Origin: Pseudomonadota bacterium
GTDB lineage: Bacteria; Pseudomonadota; Alphaproteobacteria; GCA-2746255
Direction of reading: 5' to 3'
Assembly: GCA_040752895.1 (NCBI GenBank)
Contig: JBFMHN010000001.1
Span: 537,213 to 601,212 of the forward strand
DNA: 64,000 bases
The notes under the pieces are model-generated. The model was not told the DNA's origin. It saw only the letters and a program-made list of their open reading frames with translations, and did not search any database. A program made the position numbers and the translations under genes. Numbering within the stretch: the stretch's first letter is position 1; each line of letters opens with the position of its first letter. This document shows, in pieces, positions 4,539 to 24,345 of this stretch.

Positions 4539-5587
4539 CGCTTTTCCCGGCCTGCGCTTTCAATATCGGATTCGACCATCTCGCGAACCAGCTCGGCAAA
4601 GCCGATCCGATGTTTCCAGCCAAGCTTCGCGCGCGCCTTCGACGGATCGCCGAGCAGGCTTTCGACCTCCGTCGGCCGGAAATAGCGCGGATCGATTTCG
4701 ACGAGGACATTTCCGTTTTTGGCGTCCACGCCTTTTTCATCCACGCCCTTTCCTTTCCAGGCGATCTCGCGCCCGATATGGCCAAAGGCAAGCGCGACGA
4801 ATTCCCGGACACTGTGCTGTTCCCCGGTCGCCAGCACGTAGTCGTCCGGTTCCGGCTGCTGGACGATGCGCCACATGCCCTCGACGTAGTCCTTGGCGTG
4901 GCCCCAGTCGCGCTTGGCGTCCAGGTTGCCGAGATAGAGCCTGTCCTGAAGCCCGAGATGAATAGCGGCGACGGCGCGCGTGATCTTGCGGGTGACGAAG
5001 GTTTCCCCGCGCGTCGGCCCTTCGTGGTTGAAAAGGATGCCGTTCGAGGCATGAAAACCATAGGCCTCGCGGTAGTTCACGGTGACCCAGTAGGCGTAAA
5101 GCTTGGCCGCCCCGTAGGGGCTTCGGGGGTAGAACGGCGTCGTTTCCGTTTGCGGCACTTCCAAGGCTTTCCCGTAAAGCTCGGAGGTGGAAGCCTGGTA
5201 GAAGCGGGTGCGCTCCTTGAGGTTCAGGATTCGCATTGCCTCCAGCAGGCGAAGCGTGCCGAGCGCGTCCGTGTTCGCCGTGTATTCCGGCGTTTCGAAA
5301 CTGACCTGCACGTGGCTCTGGGCGGCGAGGTTGTAAATTTCCGTGGGCTGGGTTTCCTGGACGAGACGGATAAGATTCGTCGCATCCGTCATGTCGCCAT
5401 AGTGAAGGAAGAACCGCAGGCCCCGCTCGTGGGGGTCCCGGTAAAGATGGTCAACCCGCCCGGTATTGAGGGAGGAGGACCGCCGTTTCACGCCGTGGAC
5501 GACATACCCCTTTTCCAACAGGAGTTCCGCCAAGTAAGCGCCGTCCTGGCCGGTGGCCCCGGTAATCAGTGCGACCTTTTCCGCCAT
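4535..5587 (-). CDS. gmd: GDP-mannose 4,6-dehydratase
   Basis: This 350-aa enzyme converts GDP-D-mannose to GDP-4-keto-6-deoxy-D-mannose. The N-terminus shows the NADP-binding [16 protein letters not shown] motif, then KRRSSS, and catalytic Tyr158/Lys162 in [12 protein letters not shown]. An open frame continues upstream to 5830, but that part overlaps manC and has no family resemblance. The ATG at 5587 gives the standard N-terminus [10 protein letters not shown]. It lies 13 bp after manC and overlaps fcl, so manC-gmd-fcl is one operon. Confidence 0.96.
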
Positions 5588-5600
5588 GGCGTGCCCCCGG

Positions 5601-7124
5601 CTAGTTCGTGACCCGTTTTCCACGTCCCGCCTTAGCACGGTTGCCCTTCGCCCCGCCATATTTTCGACCGCCGGCGGAAGGCCGCTCGACGCGCCCGTAG
5701 ACATCGTCGAAACGGACGATATCGTCCTCCCCCAGGTAGCTCCCCGACTGCACCTCGATGAGGTGGAGGGGCCGATGCCCGGGATTCGCCAGCCGATGAA
5801 TCGTGCCGGCCGGAAGGTAGATCGATTCATTCTCCCTAAGGTCGAGCGATTTCTTGCCCTTCGTGACGCGGGCCGTGCCTTCGACGACGACCCAGTGCTC
5901 GGCGCGGTGGCGGTGCTTCTGCAAGGAAAGCTTGGCGCCCGGTTTGACCATGAGGCGTTTCACCTGAAAGCGTTCGCCGGAATCGACCGTCCGATAGCTG
6001 CCCCACGGGCGATGGACGGTCGGGTGGCTTGCCGCCTCCTGGCGACCCTTGGCCCTTAACTTCTCGACGATCGTCTTGACGTCTTGGGCGCGGTCACGGC
6101 TGACGACAAGCACGGCATCCCCGGTGGCGACGACGATCACGTCCTTAACCCCAAGAGCGGCCACAAGCGGGCCTTCGCTTCGCAAATACGCGTTCCGAAC
6201 ATCGAGGCCCAAGACGTCCCCCTCCAGCACGTTTCCGCATCCGTCGGCCTTCGCCATCGCCTGCAACGCTTCCCATGACCCGACGTCGCTCCACCCCATC
6301 TCGACGGGAACGACCGCCGCGGCTTGCGTCTTCTCCATCACCGCAACGTCGATCGAGACGGCGGCGGCGGCCTTAAAGGCTTTGCTGTTCAGCCGCAAGA
6401 AACCGAGGTCTTCTTCGGATTTTGCGACCGCTTCCCTTGCACACATGACGATTTTCGGCTGCAGGTGATCAAGCTCTTCCAGAAAGCGGTCGGCGCGAAA
6501 AAGAAAGATGCCGCTGTTCCAATAGATATCCCCTCCCCGGATAAGCTTTTCAGCCGTCTTGCGGTCGGGCTTTTCAATGAAGCGGGTGACCTCGAAGCAC
6601 CCCTTCGCCCCCTTCATGGGGGCACCGCGCTGAACATAGCCATAGCCGGTCTCCGGCGCGGTGGGGAAAACGCCGAAGGTGACGAGCGCGCCGGCTTCGG
6701 CCGCCGGTGTGGCTTTTGCGACGGCTTCAAGAAACCGTTTTCGCGCGCCGATGGCGTGATCGGAAGGCAGCACCAGAAGAAGCGCGCCGGCGGTCTTTTT
6801 TTCGGCGAGGCAAGCCGCCGCAGCCGCCGCGGGGCCGGTGTTTCGGCCGGCCGGTTCGAGGACGATATGCCTGGGCTTTACGCCAACGACGGAAAGCTGC
6901 TCGGCGATGAGAAAGCGGTGGGCCTCCCCGCCGATCACCAGCATGGGATCAAAAAGGCTTTTGTCCGCCACCCTAAGCGCCGTTTCCTGCAGAAGGCTGC
7001 GTTCGCCCACCAGCGGGTATAGCTGCTTCGGGTAAAGGGCGCGCGAAAGAGGCCAAAGACGCGTGCCGGAGCCCCCGGAGAGAAGAACTGGCGTTATTCG
7101 CGCCGTCTCACGTTTTTTTGCCAT
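5601..7124 (-). CDS. manC: Mannose-1-P guanylyltransferase / mannose-6-P isomerase
   Basis: This 507-aa bifunctional type II PMI/GMP makes GDP-mannose. The nucleotidyltransferase signature [12 protein letters not shown] is near residue 17, and [14 protein letters not shown] is present in the middle. A C-terminal cupin begins at RPWGSYR with metal-binding histidines in KHRHRAEHW. The C-terminal 25 residues are a Gly/Lys/Arg-rich tail ([20 protein letters not shown]), unusual for the family and probably disordered. A phosphomannomutase needed between the two activities is not in the window. It is first in the manC-gmd-fcl operon. Confidence 0.95.
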
Positions 7125-13988: not shown

Positions 13989-14105
13989 GCGGCCGGCCAT
14001 AACCCCAAGACCAACACCCATATTTAAAGGCGGGTTTTTCTCATGGAACTTTGCGGGTTCGTCTTCTTAAGGTGGCCCGCAATATCCAGGTCGTCTTTAA
14101 AACGG

Positions 14106-14666
14106 CTAGCTGCTGGCGGCAATCTCATGCACATGGACATGAGTCGCCTGATGTCGCCGGAGAATGTCCAAGGCCTTTTCCCCCTCTTCGGGACGGCGCA
14201 GATGAACCCATAGCAGGATGCCGCCACGGTCGAGCTGCTGCTCGTAACGCGCGGCATGTTCTTCCCCAAGTTCGCCGGCCACCAATCCGCCAAAGGTCCC
14301 GGCCAAGCCGCCGGCCGCAACGGCGGCCCCAATCGCGGGCAAAAGCGCGCCCCCACTTGCCACAACCGCTCCGCTTGCGGCAAGGGCGGCGATGAACAAG
14401 GGGGCTCCTATGATGGCCGCCCCTCCCACATCGACCGCTTCCTTCGATACCCAGGCGGCGCGAGGTGCTTCGGGGTCGTCCTCGGCTTGCTCGACTCGCG
14501 TATAGACGTGGCCAAGCTTTTCCTGGACGATCTTGTCATTGGCAAGCAGACTAAGTTCGGAACGATCAAAACCGTTGATCCGAAATTCGTCCACCGCACT
14601 TTCCAGGTCTTCCGCGGAATGAAAGATGCCGACGGCCTCGCGCACCGTTGCGGTTGAGTCTGCCAT
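14106..14666 (-). CDS. Stress-type protein with glycine-rich membrane segment
   Basis: This protein of about 186 aa has an N-terminal alpha/beta domain, where REAVGIFHSAEDLESAVDEFRINGF resembles the general-stress 17M/YflT-like domain. A long Ala/Gly-rich hydrophobic stretch follows (about 82-137 from the first Met), with a short C-terminal domain ending THVHVHEIAASS. Such glycine-zipper segments are seen in proteins that associate with membranes. The ATG at 14666 is preceded by GGGGTG at good distance; a GTG nine bases upstream is the alternative. The precise function is unknown. It is transcribed towards the aminotransferase gene. Confidence 0.7.
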   Translation of the reverse strand: MADSTATVREAVGIFHSAEDLESAVDEFRINGFDRSELSLLANDKIVQEKLGHVYTRVEQAEDDPEAPRAAWVSKEAVDVGGAAIIGAPLFIAALAASGAVVASGGALLPAIGAAVAAGGLAGTFGGLVAGELGEEHAARYEQQLDRGGILLWVHLRRPEEGEKALDILRRHQATHVHVHEIAASS

Positions 14667-14806
14667 AAAGATCACCCCACTAACGCATTGTTTTACAAAG
14701 AATTAATCAGGATACCCCCTACGTACATGTGCAGTATAGCAATTTTTAGTGATCCGCAAAACACGCGCCCGGGCGACCGGCAATGGGTGGGAAGCTCTCA
14801 GCCAGA

Positions 14807-14844
14807 AACAAAAAAGAGCGCCGGAAGGATTTTCGGCGCTCTTT
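14807..14844 (-). terminator. Rho-independent terminator of the Cys-rich gene
   Basis: An 11-base perfect inverted repeat, AAAGAGCGCCG (14813-14823) with CGGCGCTCTTT (14834-14844), encloses a 10-base loop. Read on the minus strand it is followed by a run of T residues and lies about 30 bases past the stop of the Cys-rich gene. This is the clearest intrinsic terminator in the window. Confidence 0.85.
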
Positions 14845-14875
14845 CTCGTTAGGCAATAACTCTTGGACGCGAGGG

Positions 14876-15124
14876 TTACTCCGCTGCGCAGGGATTACTG
14901 CTCTTTGCGGCGCAGGGGTTCTTCCCGGCGCAAGGATTGCCGCTCTTTTTCTTCGCTGCGCAGGGGTTCTTCCCGGCGCAAGGATTGCCGCTCTTGACGG
15001 CGCACGGGTTGCAGGGGTTGCAGCCCGCCGAGGCCGGGCTCACCGCCGCGACAGCACCGGCCATCAGAACAGCTGCGCCGAACGCAACCGCCCGTTTCAT
15101 GGGAAGACGCTTTCTTGAAAGCAT
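14876..15124 (-). CDS. Small secreted NPC-repeat cysteine-rich protein
   Basis: This 82-aa protein has a clear signal peptide (MKRAVAFGAAVLMAGAVAA from residue 9, cleavage after about PASA). The mature part is made almost only of GNPCAGK/NPCAAK units and contains eight cysteines. The first ATG at 15124 is supported by AGGAGAG eight bases upstream. Repeats of this kind suggest binding of a soft metal or disulfide cross-linking in the periplasm, but I know of no assigned function. It is a single-gene unit with its own terminator (14807-14844). The repeat is visible in the DNA as well. Confidence 0.75.
   Translation of the reverse strand: MLSRKRLPMKRAVAFGAAVLMAGAVAAVSPASAGCNPCNPCAVKSGNPCAGKNPCAAKKKSGNPCAGKNPCAAKSSNPCAAE
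14910..14994. repeat. 37-bp direct repeat inside the Cys-rich gene
   Basis: Two identical 37-base copies occur at 14910-14946 and 14958-14994, 48 bases apart (16 codons, so in frame). Each encodes one GNPCAGKNPCA block. Perfect identity at DNA level suggests recent duplication or slippage, so repeat number could vary between strains. Confidence 0.85.
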
Positions 15125-15335
15125 GTAATTTTCTCTCCTAATTCCTAATACTGAAGCATCCCGTGTTTTGCTGGGAACCTATATTGGATGTCTCTACGGC
15201 AGATAAGGTTACAGCAAAGCATGAACCTGGCCAGAACAACCCAAGCGCCAGAAACTGCCTAACCCGCCGGCCAAAAACGCAGCCGTTGTAGGCGAAGCTT
15301 GTCTTGCGCCTCGCTTGGCGGCATAAGGAATCCCC

Positions 15336-16337
15336 ATGAAGAAGGGAATGGTTGCGGCGGCGCTGTTGGGCCTGGTGGTAATTGTCTGCCTGGTCGTCTA
15401 CCGAGGCGTCTCGGAAGTCTTTGGAGCACTCGCCACCGCCGGATGGGGCCTGCTTTTCCTTCCCCTTTTCCATATACTTCCCCTCGCTTGCTCGACGCAA
15501 GGCTGGCGCGTCCTGATCACGGGCAAGCGGCTTCGGTTCCGGCGTCTCATGGCCATCCGCTGGATACGCGAGGGGATCAACAACCTGCTGCCGGTCGCCC
15601 AGGTCGGGGGTGACTTCGTGGGCGCCCGGCTGCTCACCTTTTCCGGGGTTCCCGGCGGGGTTGCCGGAGGCAGTTCTATCGTCAGCTTGACGATGGAGGT
15701 GATCGCGCAGTTTCTATTCACCCTTTTCGGATTCGGCCTCCTTTTGCTTCACCTCGGCGGCCGGGGATCCGATGGGCTTTTCTGGATTCTCGTCGCGATC
15801 CTGATGATGCTGCCGATGCTGGTCGGCTTTCTCGTTGCCCAACGCACGGGTTTCTTCCGATGGATCGAACGGCTGTTCAACAAGGCGATCGGAAATCTAC
15901 AGCTGGAATGGCTGGGCATTGGCGAACTCCGCGGGCTGCACGAGGCGATCTTGGAGATCTACCGCTCGCCCCGCGCCGTGGCAGCAAGTGCTTTTTACCA
16001 TTTCCTTTCCTGGCTGGCGGGTACCGGCGAGGTGTGGATTGCGCTTCACCTGATGGGGCACCCGGTCAGCCTTGCCGACGCCCTGATCCTCGAAAGCCTG
16101 GGTAAGGCAATGCGAAGTGCGGCCTTCATCGTGCCCGGCGGACTCGGCGTGCAGGAAGGCGGCTATATGCTGTTGGCCCCGCTGATGGGGTTAACGCCGG
16201 GAATGGGCTTGGCACTTTCGCTTGCCAAGCGCGTGCGCGAGGTGCTGCTCGGCGGGGGCGCCCTTCTCGCATGGCATACGATCGAAGGAAAGCGGCTTTG
16301 GCATCGCCGCGCCTCGCGGGGCGAAAACCAGTCGTAA
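15336..16337 (+). CDS. HpnL-like lysylphosphatidylglycerol-synthase-fold membrane protein
   Basis: This 333-aa polytopic protein has about eight hydrophobic segments and the pattern NNLLPVAQVGGDFVGARLL, typical of the flippase-like domain (UPF0104/LPG synthase TM). The C-terminal part SAAFIVPGGLGVQEGGYML is the second hallmark. It most resembles HpnL-type proteins, which in hopanoid producers move or place extended hopanoids. No other hopanoid gene is in the window, so the assignment is by family only. It converges with the sulfite-reduction genes. Confidence 0.75.
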   Translation: MKKGMVAAALLGLVVIVCLVVYRGVSEVFGALATAGWGLLFLPLFHILPLACSTQGWRVLITGKRLRFRRLMAIRWIREGINNLLPVAQVGGDFVGARLLTFSGVPGGVAGGSSIVSLTMEVIAQFLFTLFGFGLLLLHLGGRGSDGLFWILVAILMMLPMLVGFLVAQRTGFFRWIERLFNKAIGNLQLEWLGIGELRGLHEAILEIYRSPRAVAASAFYHFLSWLAGTGEVWIALHLMGHPVSLADALILESLGKAMRSAAFIVPGGLGVQEGGYMLLAPLMGLTPGMGLALSLAKRVREVLLGGGALLAWHTIEGKRLWHRRASRGENQS

Positions 16338-22855: not shown

Positions 22856-23134
22856 CTAGCCGGGATTGCCTTCTTCTCGCGCCGCCAGGATTGCCTTCAG
22901 CAGATCCGGCGGCATTTCGGGTGGAGCGGGCGGCTCGGCGCGGCTTTCGTGACAAAGTGCGATGGTTTTCGCATACGCCTTCAGATAGGCGCGGCATTTC
23001 GGGCAAAGGGCGAGATGCGTGCGGAACACCAGGCGCTGGCGCAACGGCAGCGTGCCCTCTAGGTAGTCCACGATGAACGCGTCCAGTTCCCGGCAGGTCG
23101 GCATCCAATTCCTTGCCTTGTTCTTCAATGGCAT
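22856..23134 (-). CDS. Zinc-finger anti-sigma factor (ZAS type)
   Basis: This 92-aa cytoplasmic protein has the pattern C(R)ELDAFIVDYLEGTLP then HLALCPKC, which gives the His-x3-Cys-x2-Cys set of ZAS/zf-HC2 anti-sigma factors. Zinc release on thiol oxidation is the known trigger in characterised members. There is no membrane segment, so it should act as a soluble redox or metal sensor. It lies 19 bp downstream of the ECF sigma gene on the same strand, the usual arrangement. Confidence 0.88.
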   Translation of the reverse strand: MPLKNKARNWMPTCRELDAFIVDYLEGTLPLRQRLVFRTHLALCPKCRAYLKAYAKTIALCHESRAEPPAPPEMPPDLLKAILAAREEGNPG

Positions 23135-23153: not shown

Positions 23154-23738
23154 CTAGCTCTCCTGCTCGCGCAGCGTTTTTTCGAGCCGCCGCTTCAGGG
23201 CCGCCCGCGCCCGATGCAGGCGGGTCTTCGTCGCGGCAAGGGAGAGGCCGAGAAGGTCAGCGGTTTCCGCCGTATCGTACTCTTCGATGTCGCGAAACAG
23301 GATCACGTTACGAAAATCGTCCGGCAATTCGTCGATCGTCCGCCGCACAAGGCCTTGTATCTCCCGGCTTTCCAACACCGCCATCGGTTCGCGGGTCAGC
23401 GCCGAGTTCTCCGCCTTTCGCATGCCCCGCTCGTCAAACTCGGAAGGCGGATCGTCGAGGGGAGCTTCCTGGCGGCGGCCCCGTTGCCGAAGTTTCATCA
23501 AGGCCGCGTTCACCACGATCCGATGAAGCCACGAGCCAAGGGCCGATCGCCCTTCAAAGCCCCCGATGTTCCGGAAGGCCTGAAGAAAGGCTTCCTGCAC
23601 GCAATCCTCGGCCTCGCCTTCGTCGCGAACGACACGACGGGCAACCGCCAGCATCCGTCCGCCGAAGGTCTTGACCAACGTCTCGTAGCTGGACGGATCC
23701 CCATCCTGCAACCGGCGAATCAGGTCTTCTTCGTCCAC
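23154..23738 (-). CDS. ECF RNA polymerase sigma factor
   Basis: This 194-aa sigma-70 family protein has region 2 (SSYETLVKTFGGRMLAVARRVVRDEGEAEDCVQEAFLQAF, about 16-55) and region 4 (ELPDDFRNVILFRDIEEYDTAETADLLGLSLAATKTRLHRAR, about 135-177). It is paired with the zinc anti-sigma gene. A GGAACC element on the minus strand about 50 bases upstream could be the -35 of an autoregulated promoter, but the matching -10 is not convincing. Neighbouring DoxX-like, MsrA and MsrB genes suggest an oxidative-stress regulon. Confidence 0.92.
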   Translation of the reverse strand: MDEEDLIRRLQDGDPSSYETLVKTFGGRMLAVARRVVRDEGEAEDCVQEAFLQAFRNIGGFEGRSALGSWLHRIVVNAALMKLRQRGRRQEAPLDDPPSEFDERGMRKAENSALTREPMAVLESREIQGLVRRTIDELPDDFRNVILFRDIEEYDTAETADLLGLSLAATKTRLHRARAALKRRLEKTLREQES

Positions 23739-23910
23739 TCGATCCCACTTCCGGTGATTGCTCGGCGCCCGACCCGCGGGTTCCCCGCTTTAAAGATCCC
23801 TGTAACGAAATCGGCCGGAGCGGCATCGAAGTTCGGGTCCTCTCCAGGCCCGGCTCGCATCCGGGGCGCAGAATCTAACAAGCCCCCAGCCTGCGCCCCG
23901 GAGCGAGCTT

Positions 23911-24345
23911 TTAATTTTCTTTCCTGACGCCGCCAACCGTCAACCATGCGTCGCTTTCCCGTAACAGGAAAAGGGCGACGAGCGCACCAAGGACGGGAAC
24001 GGCAGCCCAAAACAGATGGTTGATTCCCTCATAAGGATCGGCGAGTTGGGCAATGGTGGAAAGCGTCGAGACGGCGTGCATCAGAAGAACGATGCCGTAG
24101 GTCCAAATTTTCCAAAGGCCGCAGGCAAAAGCAAGCACGAGGGCGGTCTGGACAAGACCGATACCAATAGCGGCCATGACCGGAAGCGATTCGATGAAAT
24201 AAAAAGCCTTGAAAATGCCGGCTGCGCGATCGGGAAACAGGATCTTCTCAACGGACCAGACAAGCAGAAAAGCGGCAACCGTCAGACGAACGATTGCGAG
24301 GCTCGTCCCAAGGTGGTGTGGGCGGGAAATGGCTGGATCCTGCAT
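23911..24345 (-). CDS. DoxX/MauE-like four-helix membrane protein
   Basis: This 144-aa protein has four hydrophobic segments (roughly 16-36, 52-75, 79-100 and 108-128) and a short polar C-terminus. The layout and FPDRAAGIFKAFYFIESLPV resemble DoxX/MauE-type small membrane proteins, which often accompany ECF-sigma-controlled redox-stress genes. An AAGGAGA ribosome site lies nine to ten bases before the ATG. No catalytic residues are evident, and the family is assigned from topology and weak similarity only. Confidence 0.6.
   Translation of the reverse strand: MQDPAISRPHHLGTSLAIVRLTVAAFLLVWSVEKILFPDRAAGIFKAFYFIESLPVMAAIGIGLVQTALVLAFACGLWKIWTYGIVLLMHAVSTLSTIAQLADPYEGINHLFWAAVPVLGALVALFLLRESDAWLTVGGVRKEN

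Follow-up and report, generated by a model that had tools for sequence, protein, structure and literature searches.

Metallothioneins are cytosolic proteins rich in CxC motifs. The bufferins (Buf1/DUF2282, Buf2 and Buf_EGKCG, the last with repeats) are small, exported, Cys-rich, MNIO-modified RiPPs that bind copper; the portions of PMC12452194 consulted describe them as copper chelators, report fusions of Buf1 with cytochrome c and with an FGE-sulfatase as well as sigma factors in Buf1 clusters, and include few bufferin genomes lacking MNIO (Table 3).

The gene described here lies in a 64,000-nucleotide stretch of an alphaproteobacterial genome (the window) and encodes a protein built from NPC units. 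The protein resembles the bufferins in being small, exported and Cys-rich, and Buf_EGKCG in being repetitive, but has a different repeat and different partners, i.e. DUF6969 proteins and cytochromes of the P460 or SoxA/TsdA type; its family shares with Buf1 an association with sigma factors, and its cytochrome and FGE-like partners recall the Buf1 fusions reported in the same portions of PMC12452194. The Cys-rich precursor carries a signal peptide, as judged by eye; Pfam and NCBIfam scans of it gave no DUF2282/BufA profile match, and the genome, which is 99.87% complete, has no match to MNIO (PF05114). Since its genome is without MNIO enzymes, the window protein does not qualify as a bufferin on the tests applied, and its assignment to the MNIO-modified bufferins was rejected. 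Like metallothioneins, it is Cys-rich, of low complexity and poor in aromatic residues; unlike them, it is exported and has C-x2-C and C-x5-C spacings with no CxC. The Pfam scan returned no metallothionein match, its sole row being Cornifin (E 0.04, below its cut-off). A search of the open-licence literature found no description of NPC repeats, DUF6969 or a cytochrome P460 with Cys-rich repeats, and the NPC-array family, though widespread, is apparently undescribed.

Results

The NPC-array gene and its surroundings

The coordinates and strand first given for the gene are correct, and its features, with two context genes, are as follows.

14876..15124, reverse strand: gene for a small, secreted NPC-array protein of 82 residues, ATG at 15124; orthologues in the same place in L115, L117 and L007
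15026..15124, reverse strand: predicted signal peptide, residues 1-33 (by eye from the sequence)
14879..15025, reverse strand: mature NPC array, residues 34-82, with 7 NPC and 8 Cys
14958..14995, reverse strand: exact 38-bp repeat, copy 1 (sequence comparison)
14910..14947, reverse strand: exact 38-bp repeat, copy 2 (sequence comparison)
15133..15139, reverse strand: ribosome site AGGAGAG, 8 nt ahead of the ATG
14807..14850 (about), reverse strand: intrinsic terminator, 17-pair hairpin with U tail
15186..15213, reverse strand: candidate promoter TGTAAC-N17-CATCC, which recurs with unchanged spacing ahead of the L115 and L007 orthologues but is incomplete in L117
23154..23738, reverse strand: ECF sigma factor (context; candidate link), matching the sigma gene shortly ahead of the NPC-P460 gene of G206 (L118); Pfam assignment made on the L118 homologue
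22856..23134, reverse strand: putative zinc-finger anti-sigma factor (context; coordinates hand-counted); an anti-sigma profile matches the gene that follows sigma in L118

The 82-residue translation of 14876-15124 (-) is MLSRKRLPMKRAVAFGAAVLMAGAVAAVSPASA followed directly by GCNPCNPCAVKSGNPCAGKNPCAAKKKSGNPCAGKNPCAAKSSNPCAAE. Its predicted signal peptide has, by eye, a basic start, a hydrophobic stretch and then ASA-G, and all seven NPC units and eight Cys are confined to the final 48 residues, in agreement with the preliminary description. A lipoprotein is disfavoured, because the sister gene in L115 has no Cys after the signal cut. The DNA repeat, described earlier as perfect over 37 bp, is indeed exact but measures 38 bp, and it extends to 46 nt at 96% identity when mismatches are allowed. 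In six frames of the whole window, no other product had at least three NPC per 60 residues.

The ribosome site and the strong terminator noted previously are both present; the terminator fold is at -30.9 kcal/mol (z -4.84 versus 200 shuffles); a simple consensus scan missed it, and GC-rich inverted repeats with T runs are seen by eye 3' of the NPC genes of L115, L117 and L007. An Rfam search over 14000-16000 gave three matches, each far under the gathering score. The TGTAAC-N17-CATCC element, present ahead of three of the four genes (window, L115 and L007), is suggestive only as a promoter of the window gene: its count in the genome is one, versus about three by naive expectation, which is weak alone, and its -10 element is unlike that of the ECF-like promoter described below. 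A sigma-70 scan returned no promoter. A further TGTAAC-N17-CATC in the window, at 23801 (+), is oriented away from the sigma gene and may be a chance occurrence. Within 23154-24345 (-) a small protein with multiple membrane spans, DoxX-like by eye, precedes the ECF sigma and putative anti-sigma genes; in a sister genome the sigma pair adjoins the NPC-P460 gene.

The divergent upstream neighbor of the NPC gene (15336-16337) encodes a lysylphosphatidylglycerol synthase-like membrane protein, and the downstream neighbor, past the terminator (14106-14675), a weakly YflT-like protein just below the Pfam cut-off. The same neighbors flank the NPC gene in two congeneric genomes (G097 and G206) and in a related MAG (L007), with DUF934, sulfite reductase, DUF2849 and an Lrp regulator farther along the conserved locus. 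Among these relatives the flanking DNA is about 70-76% identical and the NPC proteins 60-67%. A comparison of repeat number between strains, proposed in the preliminary description, gave differing counts: seven NPC units in the window, six in L117, nine in L115 and five in L007. The conserved place and variable unit number imply a gene that is maintained while its array changes.

The NPC-array family and its cytochromes

The gene had been called isolated and of no known function. Locally it is alone on its strand, but its genome holds a second family member with partners elsewhere, and the earlier view missed that it is one of a large family associated with c-type cytochromes and with DUF6969. 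We defined NPC-array family members by a signal peptide and at least three NPC units, in a genome that also encodes an NPC-cytochrome or DUF6969; the window protein belongs to this family. When an 84,980-species collection was scanned once, 111 relatives came up, and the 80 best of them were taken as loci; Marinobacter (L008) and Pseudomonas taeanensis (L051) are among their sources. This set is biased to query-like proteins, includes many truncated contigs and carries labels from profiles that we made from those very loci. Among these best 80 of 111, a small NPC protein occurs in 59 and an NPC-cytochrome in 51 (both in 34, neither in four), together with DUF6969 (55), FGE-like (27), cupredoxin-like (25; the family's cupredoxin match is below Pfam's cut-off), YeeE (24), ECF sigma (21), DUF302 (20), anti-sigma (12), MerA-like (11), Trx (7), DUF3179 (7) and DsbD (6) proteins. 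The small protein and the cytochrome are less than 500 nt apart on one strand in 27 of the 34 loci with both, as is DUF6969 in 45 of 54.

Cys and NPC are conserved across the arrays, with variable spacers, and in the cyanobacterial loci L013 and L030 arrays are fused to a thioredoxin domain. A plasmid search with the window protein found one record, a thioredoxin-domain protein of Pseudanabaena. Matches at 1e-5 were obtained in 43 of 299 genomes sampled from the phylum, mostly of the family f171, where the unit is NPC-[ASD]-M-K, often with an added His (e.g. NPCAMK and NPCSMKKH; L161-L168). Met and His make up 11.9% and 4.8% of 13 f171 arrays, versus 0.7% and 0.5% of 114 arrays of L007-L086. 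Of eight f171 loci, five have the small protein with an NPC SoxA-like cytochrome (one of the five, L166, being fragmented), and the other three have only the cytochrome. A role in anti-phage defense was considered and rejected, PADLOC giving no match for the window protein or the DUF6969 protein of its genome.

The partner heme domains, Cytochrome P460 (PF16694) and SoxA/TsdA cytochrome c (PF21342), are shared with those families, to which the NPC arrays, whether N-terminal, C-terminal or in a P460 loop, are foreign. In the best 80 of 111 loci, P460-type (25) and SoxA/TsdA-type (28) NPC-cytochromes never occur together; FGE-like genes track the former (18/25 versus 3/28; Fisher p 5e-6, kinship ignored) and sigma genes the latter (16/28 versus 0/25; Fisher p 2e-6, kinship ignored). 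In the SoxA/TsdA-type domain CxxCH is retained, as is an invariant Cys, which aligns weakly (E 0.0022) with a Cys of SoxA 1h31 that is a heme ligand in SoxA.

The second NPC protein of the window's genome is a cytochrome P460 (L006:5215-6162, also delimited as 5287-6162) with two arrays, one N-terminal and one inserted in a heme-domain loop; among the aligned proteins, an array within the heme domain is confined to the window's genus (L006, L116 and L118). Around it are DUF3179, DUF1329, DUF6969, rhodanese and ArsM-like methyltransferase genes (the last at L006:3364-4560, score 379.7, below the NCBI cut-off of 500), and two P460-type proteins without arrays, one of them below the Pfam cut-off.

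P460-type NPC proteins carry a C-x-x-P-[RS]-[LM] motif between arrays (23 proteins), with C-x-[VI]-P-R-[LM] in L011, L029, L050 and 20 others. The canonical FGE target is CxPxR, making this motif a near miss. A strong FGE-like match was found in 22 of 23 motif-bearing genomes versus none of four motif-negative ones (Fisher p 3e-4), three of the latter being from one genus. Nineteen of the 22 matches are in the locus; the other three, elsewhere in the genome (L042, L043 and L080), turned up on testing the expectation that the motif predicts FGE. G113 (L120) has the motif with only a weak FGE-like paralogue, and G000, G097, G206 and L077, where the motif is missing or has Glu for Arg, lack a strong match, G206 having a weak one. 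Five cases with the array missing, split or out of frame were left out of the count: L031 and L059 (FGE-like present, motif not seen), L038 and L073 (strong match in the genome) and L082 (none). The FGE-like proteins match the FGE/EgtB/ToxD group, with GCGVC nearly conserved; no FGE-like orthologue was found in the window's own genome.

DUF6969

Among 289 genomes of the class, profile searches found DUF6969 in 61 and NPC arrays in 34 (profile A5); DUF6969 is present in 31 of the 34 NPC-positive genomes versus 30 of the remaining 255 (Fisher p 2e-21, kinship ignored), and 24 of 25 NPC-positive families include a genome with it. The three NPC-positive genomes lacking it (G124, G206 and G269) are 93, 91 and 86% complete. 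The NPC search under-counts, as Cys arrays lie near four of 20 DUF6969 loci from 19 genomes not called NPC-positive (L098, L100, L101 and L111); FGE-like genes are present at three of these four versus none of the other 16. DUF6969 was also found on 168 plasmid records (less than 60% identity), commonly from Sinorhizobium and Burkholderia, and is thus wider than the NPC system. Its AF2 model has a pLDDT of 95.4, and comparison with solved structures gave no usable relative by Foldseek (best E 0.48) or VIA-align (best Z 3.2, rmsd 5.6, 91 aligned). The DUF6969 protein at L027:6748-7461 combines many invariant His with a confident predicted fold.

An ECF-like promoter

A free dyad search upstream of NPC genes returned a TGTAAG-N16/17-CGACTA-like element in SoxA/TsdA-type loci, with one dyad common to seven of the 28 such loci in the best 80 of 111 (shuffles, three at most). 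A strict scan of the 400 nt preceding NPC genes, using a consensus derived from the same upstream set, found matches in 14 of the best 80 of 111 loci (permuted consensus, mean 0.10, maximum 2), divided between SoxA/TsdA (13/28), P460 (0/25) and other loci (1/27); matches ahead of sigma genes (L014, L020 and L045) and thioredoxins (L054-L056) played no part in deriving the consensus. Across eight genomes there were 21 exact matches versus six for the reversed pattern. Genes 3' of matches encode NPC proteins, periplasmic thioredoxins, MsrB, a DUF2282 protein (PF10048, 6.8e-23), AhpC/TSA, an ArsM-like methyltransferase, ArsS and an anti-sigma factor, and several matches had no clear gene downstream. 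An out-of-sample test on 16 f171 genomes showed no enrichment, with seven matches versus 25 for the reversed pattern, so the regulon is real in at most part of the family; one f171 match (G398) is ~60 nt ahead of an NPC match. The bufferin-like DUF2282 gene with the NPC-type promoter (L145:1157-1450, in the genome of L056, G574) is divergent from an anti-sigma gene. The ArsM-like gene behind this promoter (L146:255-1391) is in a Nitrosomonas genome (G573); the window's genome also has one, in its NPC-P460 neighborhood.

Discussion

The results establish an NPC family and its association with NPC-cytochromes and DUF6969. With regard to function, the preliminary description had offered metal or copper buffering as a possibility, and this is our leading reading: the NPC peptide may, at just short of an even chance, be a bufferin-like but unmodified envelope thiol peptide that buffers copper or another soft metal, probably Cu(I), and/or counters redox stress, together with NPC-tagged cytochromes. 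As an exported, flexible, thiol-rich peptide working without MNIO modification, it would use its NPC units as soft-metal ligands: in its reduced state the array would take up Cu(I), or a comparable thiophilic ion, in the periplasm and buffer it, protecting the NPC-tagged cytochromes or supplying them; thiol-reducing partners, i.e. thioredoxin or DsbD where present, would keep the Cys reduced, and in some lineages an envelope-stress sigma factor would raise expression. The support is circumstantial, comprising the cupredoxin-like (25/80) and FGE-like (27/80) neighbors in the best 80 of 111 loci, the promoter type of the DUF2282 gene in one genome, and the f171 units, whose Met and His would complete a copper-ligand set, Cys, Met and His together being usual Cu(I) ligands. 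Against it, the arrays of most lineages have Cys as sole soft ligand and no CxC, the window's genome is without an FGE-like orthologue, and the ECF-like promoter, confined among the two cytochrome types to SoxA/TsdA loci, is not enriched in f171.

The MsrB and thioredoxin genes of the regulon suit oxidant stress equally, and a somewhat unlikely alternative is that the array is a sacrificial or rechargeable thiol buffer, absorbing periplasmic oxidants or electrophiles and being re-reduced by thioredoxin or DsbD, with the cytochromes passing electrons on, comparable to the Met-rich scavenger peptide that acts in the periplasm in the SigF/NrsF response to hypochlorite. The thioredoxin-fused cyanobacterial arrays, the Trx (5/28) and DsbD (6/28) genes beside NPC-cytochromes in SoxA/TsdA-type loci, and the common promoter preceding periplasmic thioredoxin, MsrB and AhpC/TSA-like genes are consistent with this; however, Trx, DsbD and sigma genes occur in none of the 25 P460-type loci (best 80 of 111, as for the preceding counts), f171 is enriched also in His, which is a metal ligand but not a typical oxidant sink, and the cupredoxin-like and FGE-like neighbors are left unexplained. 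The SoxA-TsdA_cyt-c domain of the NPC cytochrome, its invariant Cys, the YeeE/YedE sulfur transporters (24/80) and DUF302 (20/80) in the best 80 of 111 loci, and the sulfite reductase close to the window gene point instead to a sulfur carrier, the Cys holding a persulfide or thiosulfonate for a SoxA/TsdA-like cytochrome as SoxY carries sulfur for SoxA. Given a SoxA match of only E 0.0022, a P460-type NPC cytochrome in the window's genome and P460-type partners for which we know of no sulfur role, this is improbable. Low complexity and a variable repeat number would also suit a spacer or cross-linked structural material with no soluble chemical role; the retention of Cys and NPC while spacers vary and the consistent redox-gene partners make that very improbable, and the cross-linked surface material suggested earlier finds no supporting partner.

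To return to buffering, NPC arrays could, in an extension that we regard as speculative and on balance unlikely, be a portable envelope metal/redox tag, with the free peptide trading metal or thiol equivalents with the cytochrome arrays, and an exported FGE-like enzyme modifying the motif Cys in the P460 branch to give a kind of modified cytochrome not seen before.

If the proposed role is correct, an MNIO-independent, widespread class of Cys-repeat peptides would be added to bacterial metal/redox defense, and one repeat would tie together two unrelated heme enzyme families. It would also give a working context to DUF6969, which has a confident predicted fold without a clear match among solved structures. 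The system would be genetically simple, and one in which repeat number may set dose.
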